A model generated the notes under the pieces. That model had not been told where the DNA came from and ran no database searches. It saw nothing but the letters and a program-made list of their open reading frames with translations. Source: Gammaproteobacteria bacterium (GTDB taxonomy: Bacteria; Pseudomonadota; Gammaproteobacteria; JAJPIJ01). From it: a stretch of DNA of 38,918 bases. A program made the position numbers and the translations under genes. Positions 546-6,729 of this stretch are shown here, one piece after another. The DNA lies in the NCBI GenBank assembly GCA_022072255.1, contig JAJVHZ010000088.1, positions 1-38,918 on the forward strand. The letters are read 5' to 3'. Positions within the stretch are counted from its first letter, which is position 1. Every line of letters starts with the position of its first letter.

Positions 546-574
546 ATTCTCTTGAAAGGTCGAAAGGGTGTCAA
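546..574 (-). promoter_or_regulatory. Sigma-70 promoter of the tRNA-Tyr-Gly-Thr-tuf unit
   Basis: On the minus strand a perfect -35 box TTGACA (574-569) is followed by a 17-base spacer and a -10 box GAGAAT (551-546, four of six matches). A GC-rich discriminator AGCCGGC follows, a feature known from stringently controlled stable RNA promoters. The TGA inside the -35 box is the stop codon of tsaC. No other strong promoter is visible before the tRNAs. Assignment is by pattern only. Confidence 0.7.
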
Positions 575-1137
575 CGGGCCGCGGCGGCGCGGATCAGGTG
601 CCCGGTCAGCGCATCCCGGATCTCCGTCGGCCCCGCCAGACGGCCGGTTTCCCCCGCCACGACCATGTCAATCCGGCAGCCGAGAACGGCCCGCAGGCGC
701 AGAGAGTCGCGTATCGGCGGGCGGCCGCTGCGGTTGGCGCTCGTCGACACCAGGGCCCCGGTCAGGCGGCACAGGTCGGTCGCCACCGGGTGGTCGATGA
801 CGCGCACGGCGAGAGTGTCACGGCCCCCCGTGAGGCGCCGGTCCACGCCCGGCCTGGCGGGCACCAGCCATGTATGCGGTCCCGGCCAGGACCTGAGCAT
901 GCGCCGCAGCGCCTCCCCCGCGGGGAAGATAACCCATGGATCCAGTTGGGCTATCTCGGCGGCGATCAATATGAACCCCTTGCGCGCGTCGCGCTCTTTC
1001 AGGGCGATGAGACGGTTCAGGGAGGTCCGGCTGGCGGGGCTGCAGCCCAGCCCGAAGACCGCCTCGGTCGGATAGCCGATGATCCCCCCCGCCGCCACGA
1101 CGCGCGCGGCGCGGCGAAGTTGCAGAGCGAACGCCAC
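571..1137 (-). CDS. tsaC: Threonylcarbamoyl-AMP synthase TsaC (YrdC family)
   Basis: TsaC makes threonylcarbamoyl-adenylate from threonine, bicarbonate and ATP. This is the first step of t6A modification at position 37 of ANN-decoding tRNAs. The 188-residue protein has the short TsaC length, without the extra domain of Sua5. Visible motifs are YPTEAVFGLGC (22-32), the basic KERDARKG stretch (47-54), WPGPHTW (84-90), STSANRSG (131-138) and TEIRDALTG near the end, all typical of the YrdC nucleotide-binding pocket. The start is GTG at 1137, nine bases after the topA stop, with no clear Shine-Dalgarno sequence, which suggests coupling to topA. The stop codon lies inside the -35 box of the downstream tRNA promoter. 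The setting next to tRNA genes fits its tRNA-modifying role. Confidence 0.95.
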   Translation of the reverse strand: MAFALQLRRAARVVAAGGIIGYPTEAVFGLGCSPASRTSLNRLIALKERDARKGFILIAAEIAQLDPWVIFPAGEALRRMLRSWPGPHTWLVPARPGVDRRLTGGRDTLAVRVIDHPVATDLCRLTGALVSTSANRSGRPPIRDSLRLRAVLGCRIDMVVAGETGRLAGPTEIRDALTGHLIRAAAAR

Positions 1138-1146
1138 GGCCGATTG

Positions 1147-3474
1147 CTAGCCGGCGGCCTTGGCCTTCGCCGCGCCCGCCCGCCCGCGACGCCTCGCCGC
1201 CGGCGCCGCCTCCAGCAGCGCCTGCGCCTCGGCGAGACCCAGCTCGCCGGGTTCACGGTCCTTGGGCACCCGGGCGTTGCGCTTGCCGTCGGTCACGTAA
1301 GGACCGTAGCGCCCGTTCAACACCCGAATCCCGGTGTCGGGGAACTCCTTGATGAATTTCGCGGCATCGGCCGCGGCCTTCTCCTTGATCACCTCGACCG
1401 CGCGCGCGAGCGTGATGGTGTAGGGATCGTCAGGCGGCTTGATCGAGACGTACTTGCTGCCGTACTTGATATAGGGTCCGAACCGGCCGACGTTCGCCAC
1501 CACGCCGTGTCCGTCCGGCAGGTCGCCGAGTTCCCGCGGCAGTCGGGCGAGCGAAAGTGCGTCCTCCAACGTGATGCTGTCCATGCGTTGCCCGGGGCGA
1601 AGACTGACGAAACGGGGCTTGGCCTCGCCCTCCGCGGCTCCAATCTGCACATAGGGTCCATAACGGCCGATGCGCACCGACACGGGCTGGCCGCTCGCCG
1701 GATCGACACCCAGGTCCCTCGCCTGTGCGACCTCCTTGCGGCTGACGTTCGCATCCTTGTCGATGACCTGTTCCTTGAACGGGCCCCAGAACTCGTCCAG
1801 CAAGGGGGTCCACTGCTTCTCCCCGCGCGATACCGCGTCGAGCTCGTCCTCGAGCTTGGCCGTGAACTCGTAATCCACGTAATGAAAGAAGTGATCGGTG
1901 AGGAATCTCGCCACGATCTTGCCGACGTCCGTCGGCCGGAAACGCTTGTTTTCGATCTCCACGTACTCCCGCTGCTGCAGGGTGGAAATGATTGCCGCGT
2001 AGGTCGAGGGCCGGCCGATACCATATTCCTCCAGCGTCTTGACCAGGCTGGCCTCGGTATAGCGCGGCGGAGGCTCCGTGAAATGCTGCTCCGGTCGAAT
2101 GGCGCTCAACTCCACGACGTCCCCCTGGGCCAGCGGCGGCAATGCGCGCTCCTCGCCGTCGGCGGCCTGTTCGTCCATGCCTTCCATGTAAACGGCCATG
2201 AAGCCGGGCTCGGCGATCGTGGACCCGGTTGCGCGGAAAATGCCACGGCCGCCGCAATCGAGATCGACCGCGACCGTGTCGATCGTCGCGTGCTTCATCT
2301 GGCAGGCGACAGTGCGTTTCCAGATGAGTTCGTAAAGCTTGTATTGATCGCTCGACAGATGCCGCTTTATCGACTCCGGGGTGCGCAGCACGGAGGTCGG
2401 TCGTATCGCCTCGTGCGCCTCCTGCGCATTCTTGGAATTGGTCTTGTAGACCCGCGGCGACTCCGGGACGTGGTCGGCGCCGAATTTTTTCGCGACGTAA
2501 CCGCGGATCTCCTCGATGGCCTCCCGCGCCAGGTTGACCGAATCGGTACGCATGTAGGTGATGAGTCCGACGGACTCCGTGCCTATGTCCACGCCCTCGT
2601 ACAACTGCTGCGCGGCACGCATCACCCGGCTGGCAGTGAACCCCAGCTTGCGAACACCTTCCTGCTGCATCGTCGATGTGATGAATGGCGCAGCCGGTTG
2701 GCGACGGCGCTGCTTCTTCTCGACGCTCACCACGGCAAGCCTCCCTTTCGCCGCACGCAACAGCTCTTCCTGCGCCTTCCTCGCCTGCTCCTCGTTGGTG
2801 ATGGTGAACTGCTCGACCTTCTCGGCGCCGAGGCGGGTCAGTCTGGCGGCGAATGCGGTGCCGCCGTGCTTCGCGTCGGCCTCTATCGTCCAGTACTCGC
2901 GCGCCTGGAACTTCTCGATCTCCTCCTCCCGCTCGGCGATGAGGCGCAGCGCCGGGCTTTGCACGCGCCCGGCCGACAGTCCCCGCTTGATCTTCTTCCA
3001 CAGCAACGGCGAGAGATTGAAGCCCACGAGATAGTCGAGTGCGCGGCGTGCCTGCTGCGCATTGACCAGCTCCATGGAAATATCGCGCGTGTGCTGCATC
3101 GCGTCCTCGATCGCGCGCCGCGTTATCTCGTGAAACACGACGCGATGCACCGGCTTCCCGTCGAGCAGGTCCTTTGCCCTGAGCAGCTCGATAAGGTGCC
3201 AGGAGATGGCCTCGCCTTCGCGGTCCAGGTCGGTGGCGAGATACAGCGCCTCGGCCTTGCGCATCGCTGCCGCGATCGCGTCGACGTGCTTCTTGTTGCG
3301 CGCGATGGGCTCATAGTGCATGCGGAAACCGTGCTCGGGCTCCACCGCCCCTTTCTTCGGCTTGAGGTCGCGGACGTGTCCGTAGGAGGCAAGCACCTCG
3401 AAATCGCCGCCAAGGTATTTCTTGATCGTGCTCGCCTTGGCCGGCGACTCGACAACAACAAGATTCTTGCTCAT
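1147..3474 (-). CDS. topA: DNA topoisomerase I (type IA)
   Basis: TopA relaxes negative supercoils through a transient 5'-phosphotyrosine bond. The 775-residue protein starts with the Toprim domain: VVVESPAKA with Glu9, and the metal-binding DLDREGE at 82-88. The active-site motif TYMRTDS places the catalytic tyrosine at about residue 307. The RPSTYA region of the type IA core follows. The C-terminal third carries three GRYGPY-type topoisomerase C-terminal repeats (roughly residues 605, 670 and 730) and a basic Ala/Arg/Lys tail. No Cys4 zinc fingers are seen, unlike E. coli TopA. The ATG at 3474 is preceded only by a weak GGTAAG. The gene follows dprA-smg and precedes tsaC, a conserved order. 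Confidence 0.98.
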   Translation of the reverse strand: MSKNLVVVESPAKASTIKKYLGGDFEVLASYGHVRDLKPKKGAVEPEHGFRMHYEPIARNKKHVDAIAAAMRKAEALYLATDLDREGEAISWHLIELLRAKDLLDGKPVHRVVFHEITRRAIEDAMQHTRDISMELVNAQQARRALDYLVGFNLSPLLWKKIKRGLSAGRVQSPALRLIAEREEEIEKFQAREYWTIEADAKHGGTAFAARLTRLGAEKVEQFTITNEEQARKAQEELLRAAKGRLAVVSVEKKQRRRQPAAPFITSTMQQEGVRKLGFTASRVMRAAQQLYEGVDIGTESVGLITYMRTDSVNLAREAIEEIRGYVAKKFGADHVPESPRVYKTNSKNAQEAHEAIRPTSVLRTPESIKRHLSSDQYKLYELIWKRTVACQMKHATIDTVAVDLDCGGRGIFRATGSTIAEPGFMAVYMEGMDEQAADGEERALPPLAQGDVVELSAIRPEQHFTEPPPRYTEASLVKTLEEYGIGRPSTYAAIISTLQQREYVEIENKRFRPTDVGKIVARFLTDHFFHYVDYEFTAKLEDELDAVSRGEKQWTPLLDEFWGPFKEQVIDKDANVSRKEVAQARDLGVDPASGQPVSVRIGRYGPYVQIGAAEGEAKPRFVSLRPGQRMDSITLEDALSLARLPRELGDLPDGHGVVANVGRFGPYIKYGSKYVSIKPPDDPYTITLARAVEVIKEKAAADAAKFIKEFPDTGIRVLNGRYGPYVTDGKRNARVPKDREPGELGLAEAQALLEAAPAARRRGRAGAAKAKAAG

Positions 3475-3589
3475 CGAAACTTACCGAAGATAGTTGGGAT
3501 CAGTAATCTGACCAGAGGCGCGAAGGCCGGACGGTTCCGTGCCGATACACTGTCGAACGCGCGACTGCGAAGGACTGCTGAGGCGAAAA

Positions 3590-4066
3590 CTAGTTCAGGG
3601 TACCGCGCAACTCGTCCATCACCAGGTCCTCCATCCAGACAAAGGCCTCCTCGTTGCCAGGCTGGTTGAACAGGACCATCAGCACTATCCATTTCAATTC
3701 GTCGGCGGCGATTTCCTCGGCGTCGAGCGCCATCGCCCTCTCGATGACCAGCTCGCGCGCACCGGAATCGAGCACCCCGACCTGCTCGAGGTAAAGCAGA
3801 AGTCCCCGGCCGTCGCGGCTGAGCTTCTCCGTTTCGGCCGCGGTGAAAATGCGCAGAGAACTGTTGCGCGCGGTCGACCCGGATGCTGCGCTCTCGCGTT
3901 GCCTGGCCAGCGCTTCCAGCCAATCGAATGCCTTGGTGATCTGGCCATCCGGGAATCCGGCCTCGATAAGCTGCCCGCGCAGCGCATCATGGTCAAGGTT
4001 CCGATTGTCCTCCTCCATGCAGTGTTCGAACAGAAACACGAGAACATCGAGAACCGTCTGCTTCAT
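3590..4066 (-). CDS. smg: Smg family protein (DUF494)
   Basis: A 158-residue acidic protein that matches the Smg/DUF494 family in length, in its N-terminal pattern (MKQTVLDVLVFLFEHCM) and in its position between dprA and topA. The family is conserved in Gamma- and Betaproteobacteria, and its biochemical role is not firmly established. The middle part is helical, with ITKAFDWLEAL typical of the family, and the C-terminus contains the WIVLMVLFNQPG stretch. The ATG at 4066 directly abuts the TAA of dprA with no spacer, so it is almost certainly translated from the same message. About 115 bases of non-coding sequence separate it from topA. Confidence 0.93.
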   Translation of the reverse strand: MKQTVLDVLVFLFEHCMEEDNRNLDHDALRGQLIEAGFPDGQITKAFDWLEALARQRESAASGSTARNSSLRIFTAAETEKLSRDGRGLLLYLEQVGVLDSGARELVIERAMALDAEEIAADELKWIVLMVLFNQPGNEEAFVWMEDLVMDELRGTLN

Positions 4067-5206
4067 TTACGCTCTCTCCCGGCCCAGCCGTACGTACAAA
4101 CCTCCCGGATGCGGAGCCACCGAGCCGCGGAGCTCCAATTCCAACAGGATGGATGAAACGACATTGGCCGTCAATCCAGTGCGATCCACGAGCGCGTCGA
4201 CGGAGACCGGATCGAATGCCATTGCATCCAGCATAAGACTTTGTTCTCCGTCGAATTCGGCTCCCGGTGGCGCCACGGTGTCTGCGCCGCCGTTGCCGGA
4301 CGCCCGGCGTGCCGCGCCGCGCGCGGCGGCAGGCAGCTCCTCGAGGATGTCGTCGATGGATTCCACGAGCTTCGCGCCCTGCTTGATGAGCGCGTGACAG
4401 CCGCGGGCAAGGGGGTTGTATATCGATCCGGGCACCGCGAAAACCTCGCGTCCCTGCTCGATCGCGTGGCGGGCGGTGATGAGCGAGCCACTGATTGCCG
4501 CGGCCTCGATCACCAGCACACCGAGACTCAAGCCGCTGATGATGCGGTTGCGCCGTGGGAAGTTCTCCGGCCTGACGAAAGCCCCGGGGGCGAACTCGGT
4601 GACCACGGCGCCGTGAGCGCGGATCGCCGCGGCCAGATCCGCATGTCCACGCGGATAGACCACATCCGGGCCGGTGCCCATGACGGCGACGCCAGGAGAT
4701 CCTCCGGCGAGGCAGCCGCGATGCGCCTCGGCGTCGACGCCGTGCGCAAGGCCGCTGGTCACCACGATGCCGCGTTCGGCAACTGCAGCAGCGAAGTGGG
4801 CGGCCAGCTCCCGTCCCGACCGGCTCGGCCGACGGCTGCCGACGATCGCGAGCTGCGGGCGCGACAGCACACCCGGGTCGCCTTCGACGAACAGCAGCGG
4901 CGGCGGCACCGCGATCTCCCGCAAGCGCGGCGGGAAAACGCTGTCCTGGCAGGTGATGATCCGCCGGCACGGTCCTGCGAGCCAGCGCAGATCAGCGTCG
5001 ATGGTTGCGATGTCGGCGGATCGAACTTCTGCGGCAAGCTCGTGACCGAGTCCCGCCTCACGGAGTTGCGCCACGGAGGCCTGCAGCACCGCGCGCGGCG
5101 ACCCGAAGAACTCGAGGAGCTTCAGAAAGGTGGCCGGCCCGATGCCGGGCACGCGCCAGAGCAGCAGCCACGATTCCCTGTCGCGAGATGCATCGTCCAT
5201 GTGCAT
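4067..5206 (-). CDS. dprA: DNA-processing protein DprA
   Basis: DprA binds incoming single-stranded DNA in the cytoplasm and loads RecA during natural transformation. The 379-residue protein has an N-terminal helix-hairpin-like region (VPGIGPATFLKLLEFFG, about 19-35). A Rossmann-like DprA fold follows, with AIVGSRRPS, SGLAHGVDAEAH, FPRRNRIISGLS and SGSLITARHAIEQGR. The C-terminal domain (about 315-375) looks like the winged-helix DprA extension. The first ATG is at 5206 and a second in-frame ATG lies two codons later. Neither has a Shine-Dalgarno sequence. A good promoter just upstream would start transcription within a base or two of 5206, so the message may be leaderless. Smg follows without a gap. 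Confidence 0.97.
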   Translation of the reverse strand: MHMDDASRDRESWLLLWRVPGIGPATFLKLLEFFGSPRAVLQASVAQLREAGLGHELAAEVRSADIATIDADLRWLAGPCRRIITCQDSVFPPRLREIAVPPPLLFVEGDPGVLSRPQLAIVGSRRPSRSGRELAAHFAAAVAERGIVVTSGLAHGVDAEAHRGCLAGGSPGVAVMGTGPDVVYPRGHADLAAAIRAHGAVVTEFAPGAFVRPENFPRRNRIISGLSLGVLVIEAAAISGSLITARHAIEQGREVFAVPGSIYNPLARGCHALIKQGAKLVESIDDILEELPAAARGAARRASGNGGADTVAPPGAEFDGEQSLMLDAMAFDPVSVDALVDRTGLTANVVSSILLELELRGSVAPHPGGLYVRLGRERA

Positions 5207-5213
5207 GCTGCGG

Positions 5214-5241
5214 ATGATAACACGGGGCAGCGGCGTGCCAA
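5214..5241 (-). promoter_or_regulatory. Extended -10 promoter ahead of dprA
   Basis: On the minus strand TTGGCA (5241-5236, five of six) is followed by 16 bases and then TATCAT (5219-5214, five of six), with the extended TG one base upstream of the -10 box. The expected start point is about 5207, next to the first ATG of dprA. The -35 box lies in the loop region of a strong inverted repeat. Confidence 0.6.
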
Positions 5242-5285
5242 CGCCTGCTGCCCCGAATCGACGCGCGCTGGTGCGCGCCGCGTCG
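5224..5285 (-). repeat. Two tandem GC-rich hairpins between the LysM gene and dprA
   Basis: Hairpin A (5224-5254) pairs GGGGCAGC plus GGCGT with ACGCC plus GCTGCCCC around a four-base loop, with one bulged T: 13 base pairs. Hairpin B (5259-5285) pairs CGACGCG plus CGC with GCG plus CGCGTCG, with one bulge: 10 base pairs. They follow the LysM gene stop at 5303 in transcription direction. Neither is followed by a T run on the minus strand, so they are not classical terminators. They could slow or shield the end of the LysM transcript. Hairpin A also overlaps the dprA promoter. Confidence 0.6.
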
Positions 5286-5302
5286 CCCCCTTTAACGCCC
5301 CA

Positions 5303-6559
5303 TCAGTACTCGTAGTCCGGGTTGCTGACCCGATCCCACATGTGCACCGGCCGGTAGGTTTCCATCACCAGTCCATAACTGACGTTGTCGAATACCCGGA
5401 AGACCATCAGTTCGCCCGCGCGTTCGGAAGGCAGCACGACCTTCTCGGGCACCGTGTGGAATTTCACGCCGAACTTCTTGTCGATCGCGCGCTTGCTGTC
5501 ACGAATGTCGTTGAACACGTGCTCGAGCAGGTTGTCGAGCGGCAATGTATCCGAACGCTCGAACTTCAGCGGCTCGTCGTCCTTTTTCTCGCGCTGCTCG
5601 GTGGCTGTCGCATCGTCGACGATCAGTCCGCTCTGATTGATGGCCAGCACGTGGCCCGGCTCGATGCCGTCCGTCGCGCCGATGTTCATCACCACGACCT
5701 GGTGGCGGCCGATCTCCTGCACGCCGTCGACCACGGAGATGATGTTGCCGTAGATCTGATTCTTCGGCGCGTGCGGAACGAACAGCGGGAAATCGTCGCG
5801 GGCGTACTGAGGGAGCAGACGATCGCCGTTGAGTACCTCCCTGCTCGAGCTCACCAGGTTGAATTTCGCGGGATCGCTGGAATACTTGTCGGCGCGGACC
5901 GCCTCGCCCACATCCAGCGCCACGTATCCGAGGATGTCGCTGTCCCTGTTATGCTTTCGCTCCCAGAACTTGTCCCAGTCGTTCTTCATCGACCACTTGC
6001 TGCGCCGAAGAGCATCGCCCTTGCGGAAGATCGCGTAGCGCTTGACGTTAGGATCGAGGTCTCCACGAACGTAGATCCGCGCGCCGCCGCCATTGACCAG
6101 ATGCTGATCGGCGCTCGACACGACGTAGGGCAGCCGCTCATAGGTGTCCTCGTCGATGACGATCGGCCGGCTGAGGAACGGTGCAATGGCGTCGACCGGT
6201 ATCGGGGCAATCGCCTGCACGTTCTGCTCCGCGCGGACGGTCGGCGAGAGTTTGTAGTCGCGCCCGCCCATATGCGCCAGACCGCTGCTTATCTCGAGCG
6301 TCGGCTGCCCGTTCCGGTAGACCAGCGTCAATACGTCGCCGGGGTAGATAAGGTGGGGGTTGCGCACCTGGGGATTGGCGCGCCAGAGGTCTGGCCAACG
6401 CCAGGGACTGGTCAGGAATCGCCCCGAGATATCCCAGAGCGTGTCCCCACGTTTGACGACGTAGGTCTGTGGATGGTCGGGCCGCAATTCCAGCGGCATC
6501 GCCACCACTGCAGCCGAGATCAGCCCCGCCCCTATAAGAAATAGTATTTTCTTAATCAT
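5303..6559 (-). CDS. Secreted LysM peptidoglycan-binding protein
   Basis: A 418-residue exported protein of the LysM-domain family found next to dprA in many Gammaproteobacteria. Residues 1-20 form a signal peptide (MIKKILFLIGAGLISAAVVA). A LysM domain follows at about 31-83, with YVVKRGDTLWDISGRF and the WRWPDLWRANPQV insert typical of this family. The remaining 330 residues are mostly beta-rich and have no recognised catalytic motif. LysM binds the glycan strands of murein, so a periplasmic or cell-wall-associated role is likely, but the function is unknown. The ATG at 6559 is preceded by AAGGG about eight bases upstream. The gene is divergent from def and is followed by two strong hairpins before dprA. 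Confidence 0.9.
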   Translation of the reverse strand: MIKKILFLIGAGLISAAVVAMPLELRPDHPQTYVVKRGDTLWDISGRFLTSPWRWPDLWRANPQVRNPHLIYPGDVLTLVYRNGQPTLEISSGLAHMGGRDYKLSPTVRAEQNVQAIAPIPVDAIAPFLSRPIVIDEDTYERLPYVVSSADQHLVNGGGARIYVRGDLDPNVKRYAIFRKGDALRRSKWSMKNDWDKFWERKHNRDSDILGYVALDVGEAVRADKYSSDPAKFNLVSSSREVLNGDRLLPQYARDDFPLFVPHAPKNQIYGNIISVVDGVQEIGRHQVVVMNIGATDGIEPGHVLAINQSGLIVDDATATEQREKKDDEPLKFERSDTLPLDNLLEHVFNDIRDSKRAIDKKFGVKFHTVPEKVVLPSERAGELMVFRVFDNVSYGLVMETYRPVHMWDRVSNPDYEY

Positions 6560-6589
6560 GTCAGTACCCTTACATCGATTCCTTCATGC

Positions 6590-6619
6590 AGTTTAGCAAA
6601 ACAGTATGCTAAAGTTGAA
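6590..6619 (-). promoter_or_regulatory. Candidate promoter of the LysM gene with an embedded inverted repeat
   Basis: On the minus strand TTCAAC (6619-6614), an 18-base spacer and TAAACT (6595-6590) form a plausible weak sigma-70 promoter. A perfect inverted repeat, TTTAGCA at 6592-6598 and TGCTAAA at 6607-6613, with an eight-base centre, sits between and across the two boxes. This is where a repressor would bind. No known operator consensus was recognised. Confidence 0.4.
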
Positions 6620-6729
6620 GTCCCTGCAATCGAATTTTTCCCGGTTCGTGGTATCAAAAAGCGTACCGACGGGCCAAACGTGCTGGAAGATCTTGCTGAC
6701 TCAAGCTCTTAGCCCTATTCTAGACTTAG

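Follow-up and report, generated by a model that had tools for sequence, protein, structure and literature searches.

Among described systems, the one closest in gene order to the locus analysed here is that of Neisseria meningitidis, where dprA, smg and topA are co-transcribed and where, according to the accessible part of the report, the authors think that topA is also transcribed independently (PMC5817196). Leaderless genes, for which a TANNNT box about 12 bp before the start has been taken as the mark, were reported in 15 of 239 gammaproteobacterial genomes (accessible text of Zheng et al., 2011; PMC3160421). In the E. coli genome, promoter regions and the stretches after stop codons are both enriched in inverted repeats that could form cruciforms (PMC6060812), and A+T-rich sequences extrude cruciforms more easily in vitro (PMC3890552), as far as the accessible text of these two papers goes.

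The window, by which we mean the whole stretch of 38,918 nt that was analysed, makes up contig 34 of a draft genome of 4.27 Mb, which named DprA relatives place among the gammaproteobacteria. It carries a dprA-smg-topA cluster preceded by a gene for a LysM-domain protein, all on the minus strand (Table 1), and the gap between the lysM stop codon and the first ATG of dprA (5207-5302) is 96 nt long. The explanation that we prefer for this gap, with a probability of about 0.6, is a sigma-70 promoter that would give rise to a leaderless dprA-smg-topA message and that overlaps a hairpin ending the lysM unit.

Table 1. Genes and predicted elements around the lysM-dprA gap, in window coordinates and in the order in which the minus strand is read.
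Feature	Position	Strand	Basis and remarks
LysM-domain gene (lysM)	5303..6559	-	PF01476; SD tetramer at start
Hairpin 1 (weaker)	5259..5285	-	Folding; unchanged in congener
Hairpin 2	5223..5255	-	14 pairs, bulged A5246, 4-nt loop
-35 box TTGGCA (5/6)	5236..5241	-	Promoter scan; identical in congener G001
Extended -10 TG	5221..5222	-	Sequence, promoter scan
-10 box TATCAT (5/6)	5214..5219	-	Promoter scan; identical in congener
Predicted transcription start (A of dprA ATG)	5206	-	Predicted from window and congener sequences
dprA (DprA/Smf, DNA processing)	4067..5206	-	PF02481, PF17782, PF21102
smg (DUF494)	3590..4066	-	PF04361; SD tetramer at start
topA	1147..3474	-	115 nt after smg; SD tetramer not found
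Sua5/YrdC/TsaC-family gene	571..1137	-	PF01300

The two promoter hexamers are separated by a spacer of 16 bp, within the 16-18 bp of sigma-70 promoters, and with the extended TG they give 10 of 12 matches on the minus strand (5241-5214); sequence and promoter scan agree on these elements, from which the initial annotation had expected transcription to start about one base before the first dprA ATG. TATCAT begins 13 bp upstream of ATG 5206, with 7 nt between the end of the box and the ATG. Taken alone, the hexamers are near chance and not significant, since 3 kb held one promoter-like match where 0.6 was expected.

To judge placement, we used a gene sample of 330,918 bases drawn from the window and 15 further contigs, 14 of them represented by their first 20 kb and one by 12 kb (16 sources in all). 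Genes were called by codon usage in place of longest-ORF calling, in which long ORFs on the wrong strand had displaced real genes; the caller put the starts of lysM, fmt and rsmB later than those otherwise adopted, and it had been trained on nine window genes with dprA among them, so its recovery of dprA is not independent. For each of the 268 genes we looked for a promoter-like pair in which 5-8 nt separate the -10 box from a plausible start; dprA ranked first with a score of 12, and the next three genes scored 9. The pattern TGNTATNAT-N7-ATG occurs genome-wide in two places, at dprA and at G000:C67:4957-4975, against 0 and 0 in the controls, and the second of these places is absent among the 25 of 26 leaderless-spacing candidates that were listed. 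The case for the promoter rests on this placement and on conservation in the congener, the hexamers by themselves being insufficient.

Two start codons, ATG 5206 and ATG 5200, lie ahead of the conserved Trp of DprA, and no Shine-Dalgarno (SD) tetramer was found at any plausible dprA start, in keeping with the earlier statement that the first ATG has none. The congener has ACG in place of the second ATG, so ATG 5206 is the start there; in that genome the A of the ATG is the only purine at which 5-8 nt would separate +1 from the -10 box, and the window offers G5208 as another candidate for the +1 purine. SD tetramers are present at lysM and smg and missing at dprA in all five of the closest loci (L001-L005). 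Over the wider set of dprA loci they precede dprA in 26/106, lysM in 48/91, smg in 40/93 and topA in 13/95; a missing SD is not peculiar to dprA, and topA is without one here and in 82 of the 95 loci with a usable start. TAnnnT boxes precede the starts of the 268 genes eight times at 6 nt and six times at 7 nt, compared with eight times at 32 nt and 11 times at 33 nt, and we claim no leaderless class for this genome because the counts at 6 and 7 nt fall within the scatter of other distances. At L119, two divergent genes, 12192 (-) and 12248 (+), form a possible leaderless pair, with 7-8 nt between each start codon and a -10-like box.

The family sample consisted of four genomes: that of the window, one congener (G001) and two from a sister genus, whose DprA proteins are 57 and 59% identical. 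In the sister genus, TAAGAT or TAACAT stands 6 nt before an SD-less GTG that is the sole start codon ahead of the conserved Trp, and such a TAnnnT box next to an SD-less start fits a leaderless dprA message, as a prediction, in both genera. Spacing, the missing SD, conservation in the congener and this sister-genus box together support the promoter and the predicted leaderless start that the initial annotation had proposed, and the dprA message is probably leaderless. Over a broader range, 104 of 110 dprA loci had a usable start, and among these TAnnnT occurred at 5, 6, 7 and 8 nt in 6, 3, 2 and 3 cases (13 loci), while each distance from 9 to 40 nt had about 1.5; independent events at leaderless spacing are few, because the 13 loci include four from this family, three from Nitrosomonas and two from Methylophilus. 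In the Nitrosomonas loci (L047, L059 and L095), the dprA ATG is SD-less and preceded at 5 nt by TATTCT or TATCCT. Those of Methylophilus (L071 and L087) have TGATACAAT 6 nt before the GTG and TGATATGAT 5 nt before the ATG of dprA, with an extended -10 TGA that looks like the lysM stop codon; dprA may be independently leaderless in these.

An alignment of the congener with the window covers positions 1 to 38909 and has 89.5% identity. Identity in the gap 5207-5302 amounts to 92.7%, just ahead of all others among the 15 window gaps longer than 50 nt (next 92.5% and 92.0%), and the genes of the locus reach 87.9% (dprA), 91.2% (topA), 91.5% (lysM) and 94.3% (smg); as 14.6% of the window's 80-nt stretches are at least as conserved as 5207-5286, conservation of the region is not extreme. 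Promoter boxes and spacing are unchanged. Of the seven differences in the gap, three are next to the stop codon of lysM, two are in the discriminator (5208 and 5209) and two are in the stem of hairpin 2. The last two, 5249 A>G and 5229 T>C, compensate each other, and all stem pairs stay intact. With seven random substitutions over the whole gap and an assumed transition share of 0.67, at least one pair would be restored with a probability of 0.031, and a pair restored with none broken with a probability of 0.006. Pairing explains these stem changes better than the promoter does, since neither position falls in a promoter box (one is in the spacer, the other upstream of the -35 box). The two-sided change is support and not proof, because quasi-palindrome correction gives the same pattern.

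Hairpin 2 is built of 9 + 5 Watson-Crick pairs interrupted by one bulged A, with a TGGC loop and a folding energy of -27.7 kcal/mol. The loop is the TGGC of the -35 box (5240-5237) and the closing pair is T5241-A5236, so the earlier description of a -35 box in the loop of an inverted repeat is true, save that the repeat has 14 pairs, one above the 13 stated. The accompanying notion of a promoter inside a hairpin applies in this genus only, in its two genomes; the sister-genus gaps have other hairpins, which lie upstream, with different loops and a T-run nearby, and the -35 is not in a loop. As single-stranded DNA, the stretch 5200-5302 is matched in folding by one of 200 shuffles; as RNA the result is less clear, with seven of 200 folding as well. 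The 331 kb contain three hairpins of at least 14 pairs, where three Markov-shuffled controls contain 1, 2 and 0, and eight of at least 12 pairs, where the controls contain 8, 2 and 3, so the rarity of the hairpin is by itself weak evidence. No Rfam match was found in 4900-5600 up to E = 1. A genome-wide search with the 27-base repeat core, allowing up to three mismatches, found one copy, as did the control with the pattern read backwards, and membership of a dispersed repeat family was rejected on this single-copy count.

Hairpin 2 lies 48 nt past the lysM stop. In the 331 kb, six hairpins of at least 12 pairs are mostly noncoding, and five of these lie within 150 nt after the stop of a gene on the same strand; of the five besides hairpin 2, three follow a stop at 35-46 nt and one at 125 nt, and for the fifth no stop occurs within 150 nt. 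Two of these five (L126 and L130) have the A-stem-U form of a terminator, the former looking as if it follows the end of a groEL gene, and the other three are without a U-tract. Hairpin 2 has the G+C-rich stem-loop after a gene that is expected of an intrinsic terminator; no canonical U-tract was found directly after it, TGTTATCATC standing there instead, with 5 T in 10 compared with 2-3 after the four other stop-proximal hairpins. A terminator scan found no terminator-like site at hairpin 2, and we do not call it an intrinsic terminator because it has no U-tract. In three loci of the same class with long gaps (L007, L009 and L026), hairpins read by eye as U-tailed precede dprA. Hairpin 2 is most simply explained as the 3' end of the lysM unit, given its stop-proximal site, shared with other hairpins of the genome, and these U-tailed hairpins in relatives.

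As for the extent of the unit, the promoter scan found no match of at least 9/12 between dprA and topA, the smg-topA gap (3474-3589) included. This, together with the co-transcription in N. meningitidis, makes it plausible from the sequence that topA belongs to one transcription unit with dprA, as had been claimed. A link to competence, also drawn in the initial annotation, is weaker than that to topA: the genome has a ComEC-family gene besides dprA, and the presence of DprA and ComEC does not prove competence. At the other end of the locus, the lysM start region (6540-6640) differs from the congener at 3 of 101 positions and contains TAAACT, a possible lysM promoter.

From the anatomy, conservation and placement observed here, we infer promoter activity, a start site, a role for the hairpin and the extent of the unit. 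A housekeeping sigma-70 promoter would start RNA at, or at most two bases from, the A of ATG 5206; the message for dprA, smg and topA, perhaps extending to tsaC, would be leaderless at its 5' end, and dprA would be initiated without an SD. Hairpin 2 would act on the lysM RNA and keep the two units apart, either by forming the 3' end of that RNA or in the manner of a terminator. Our confidence in this explanation rests mainly on placement and on the sister genus.

Several other explanations have to be weighed against it. It is possible, though we think it doubtful, that lysM and dprA form one operon in which read-through RNA is the main template for translation, the hairpin shapes, stabilises or attenuates that RNA and the promoter is secondary. 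Of the 110 loci (L001-L110), 100 have a lysM-like gene upstream of dprA, a widely kept neighbourhood; among the 97 with a valid gap, fewer than 80 nt separate the lysM stop from the conserved Trp codon in 65 (L060, L071 and L087 were left out for impossible gap values). Many of the 65 are betaproteobacterial by name, and read-through from lysM into dprA is likely in such short-gap loci. This adjacency and short distance make read-through plausible in the window too, and the missing U-tract and empty terminator scan agree with it. However, dprA is without an SD although lysM and smg have one, its promoter is the best at leaderless spacing among the 268 genes, and the 96-nt gap leaves no translational coupling by overlap; the U-tailed hairpins of the long-gap relatives also speak against a single operon. 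Quite unlikely, in our view, is a role for the repeat as an operator at which a bound regulator would occlude the -35 box: an inverted repeat over that box, kept in the congener, is what such a site would look like, but the bulge makes its half-sites asymmetric, no second genome copy of the core was found at up to three mismatches, and the congener change keeps pairing while altering half-site sequence.

The initial annotation had proposed that competence and topA expression could be sensitive to supercoiling through the hairpin. Negative supercoiling would extrude the repeat and carry the -35 box into the loop, lowering dprA-topA expression, or the reverse would hold, in a homeostatic loop with topoisomerase I; superhelical tension on a selected hairpin would then switch the unit between accessible and extruded and give topoisomerase I and DprA, a recombination mediator, a shared, supercoiling-dependent control. 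In 1988 Horwitz and Loeb reportedly found that cruciform extrusion induced by superhelicity regulates a promoter of E. coli, and it is for this precedent and the enrichment of repeats in E. coli promoter regions that we retain the idea at all, at long odds for the mechanism and for the shared control alike. The -35 box coincides exactly with the loop, a two-sided change has kept the structure in the congener, the single-stranded DNA fold beats 199 of 200 shuffles, and topA lies downstream without an evident promoter of its own. Against this, the sister genus does not have its -35 in the hairpin loop, the centre of the repeat (GGCGTTGGCACGCC) is G+C-rich and the site after lysM accounts for the hairpin more simply, which leaves the proposed sensitivity unsupported. 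Least credible is a sigma-54 promoter. TGGCACG (5240-5234) matches what we take to be the -24 consensus, and the genome has a Sigma54_DBD gene; yet TGGCAC-N5-TTGC gave no match here with one mismatch allowed, and a nearby TGC is one base off and changed in the congener. As GG and GC elements at -24 and -12 with their fixed spacing are not found together, this candidate was rejected.

If the preferred explanation of a sigma-70 promoter and a leaderless message is right, dprA would depend on recognition of a 5'-terminal AUG and not on SD pairing, at the head of a unit that probably includes topA. A hairpin in which one unit ends and the next has its -35 box would make for a compact layout, in which coupling by interference or occlusion is possible. 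Otherwise the intergenic region is a normal one. The arrangement overall is tidy and not exotic, with promoter, leaderless start and terminator-like hairpin all of known kinds.

A literature search limited to open-licence papers found no description of a leaderless dprA, and none is given in the accessible text of PMC8254717. With the E. coli cruciform promoter of Horwitz and Loeb the locus shares an inverted repeat at the promoter, but its centre is G+C-rich. In comparison with the leaderless 'TA-led' genes of PMC3160421, among which dprA is not named in the accessible part, the dprA start here is a prediction from sequence. Like the intrinsic terminators and stop-proximal repeats of E. coli, as given in the available text of PMC6060812, hairpin 2 has a G+C-rich stem and a 4-nt loop just after a stop codon; unlike those terminators, it is without a U-tract and overlaps the -35 box of the next gene. 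For N. meningitidis, the accessible part of PMC5817196 describes neither a leaderless start nor a hairpin-embedded promoter, and co-transcription there was shown by RT-PCR; the two loci have the same gene order, and in N. meningitidis, too, a promoter is predicted 5' of dprA.
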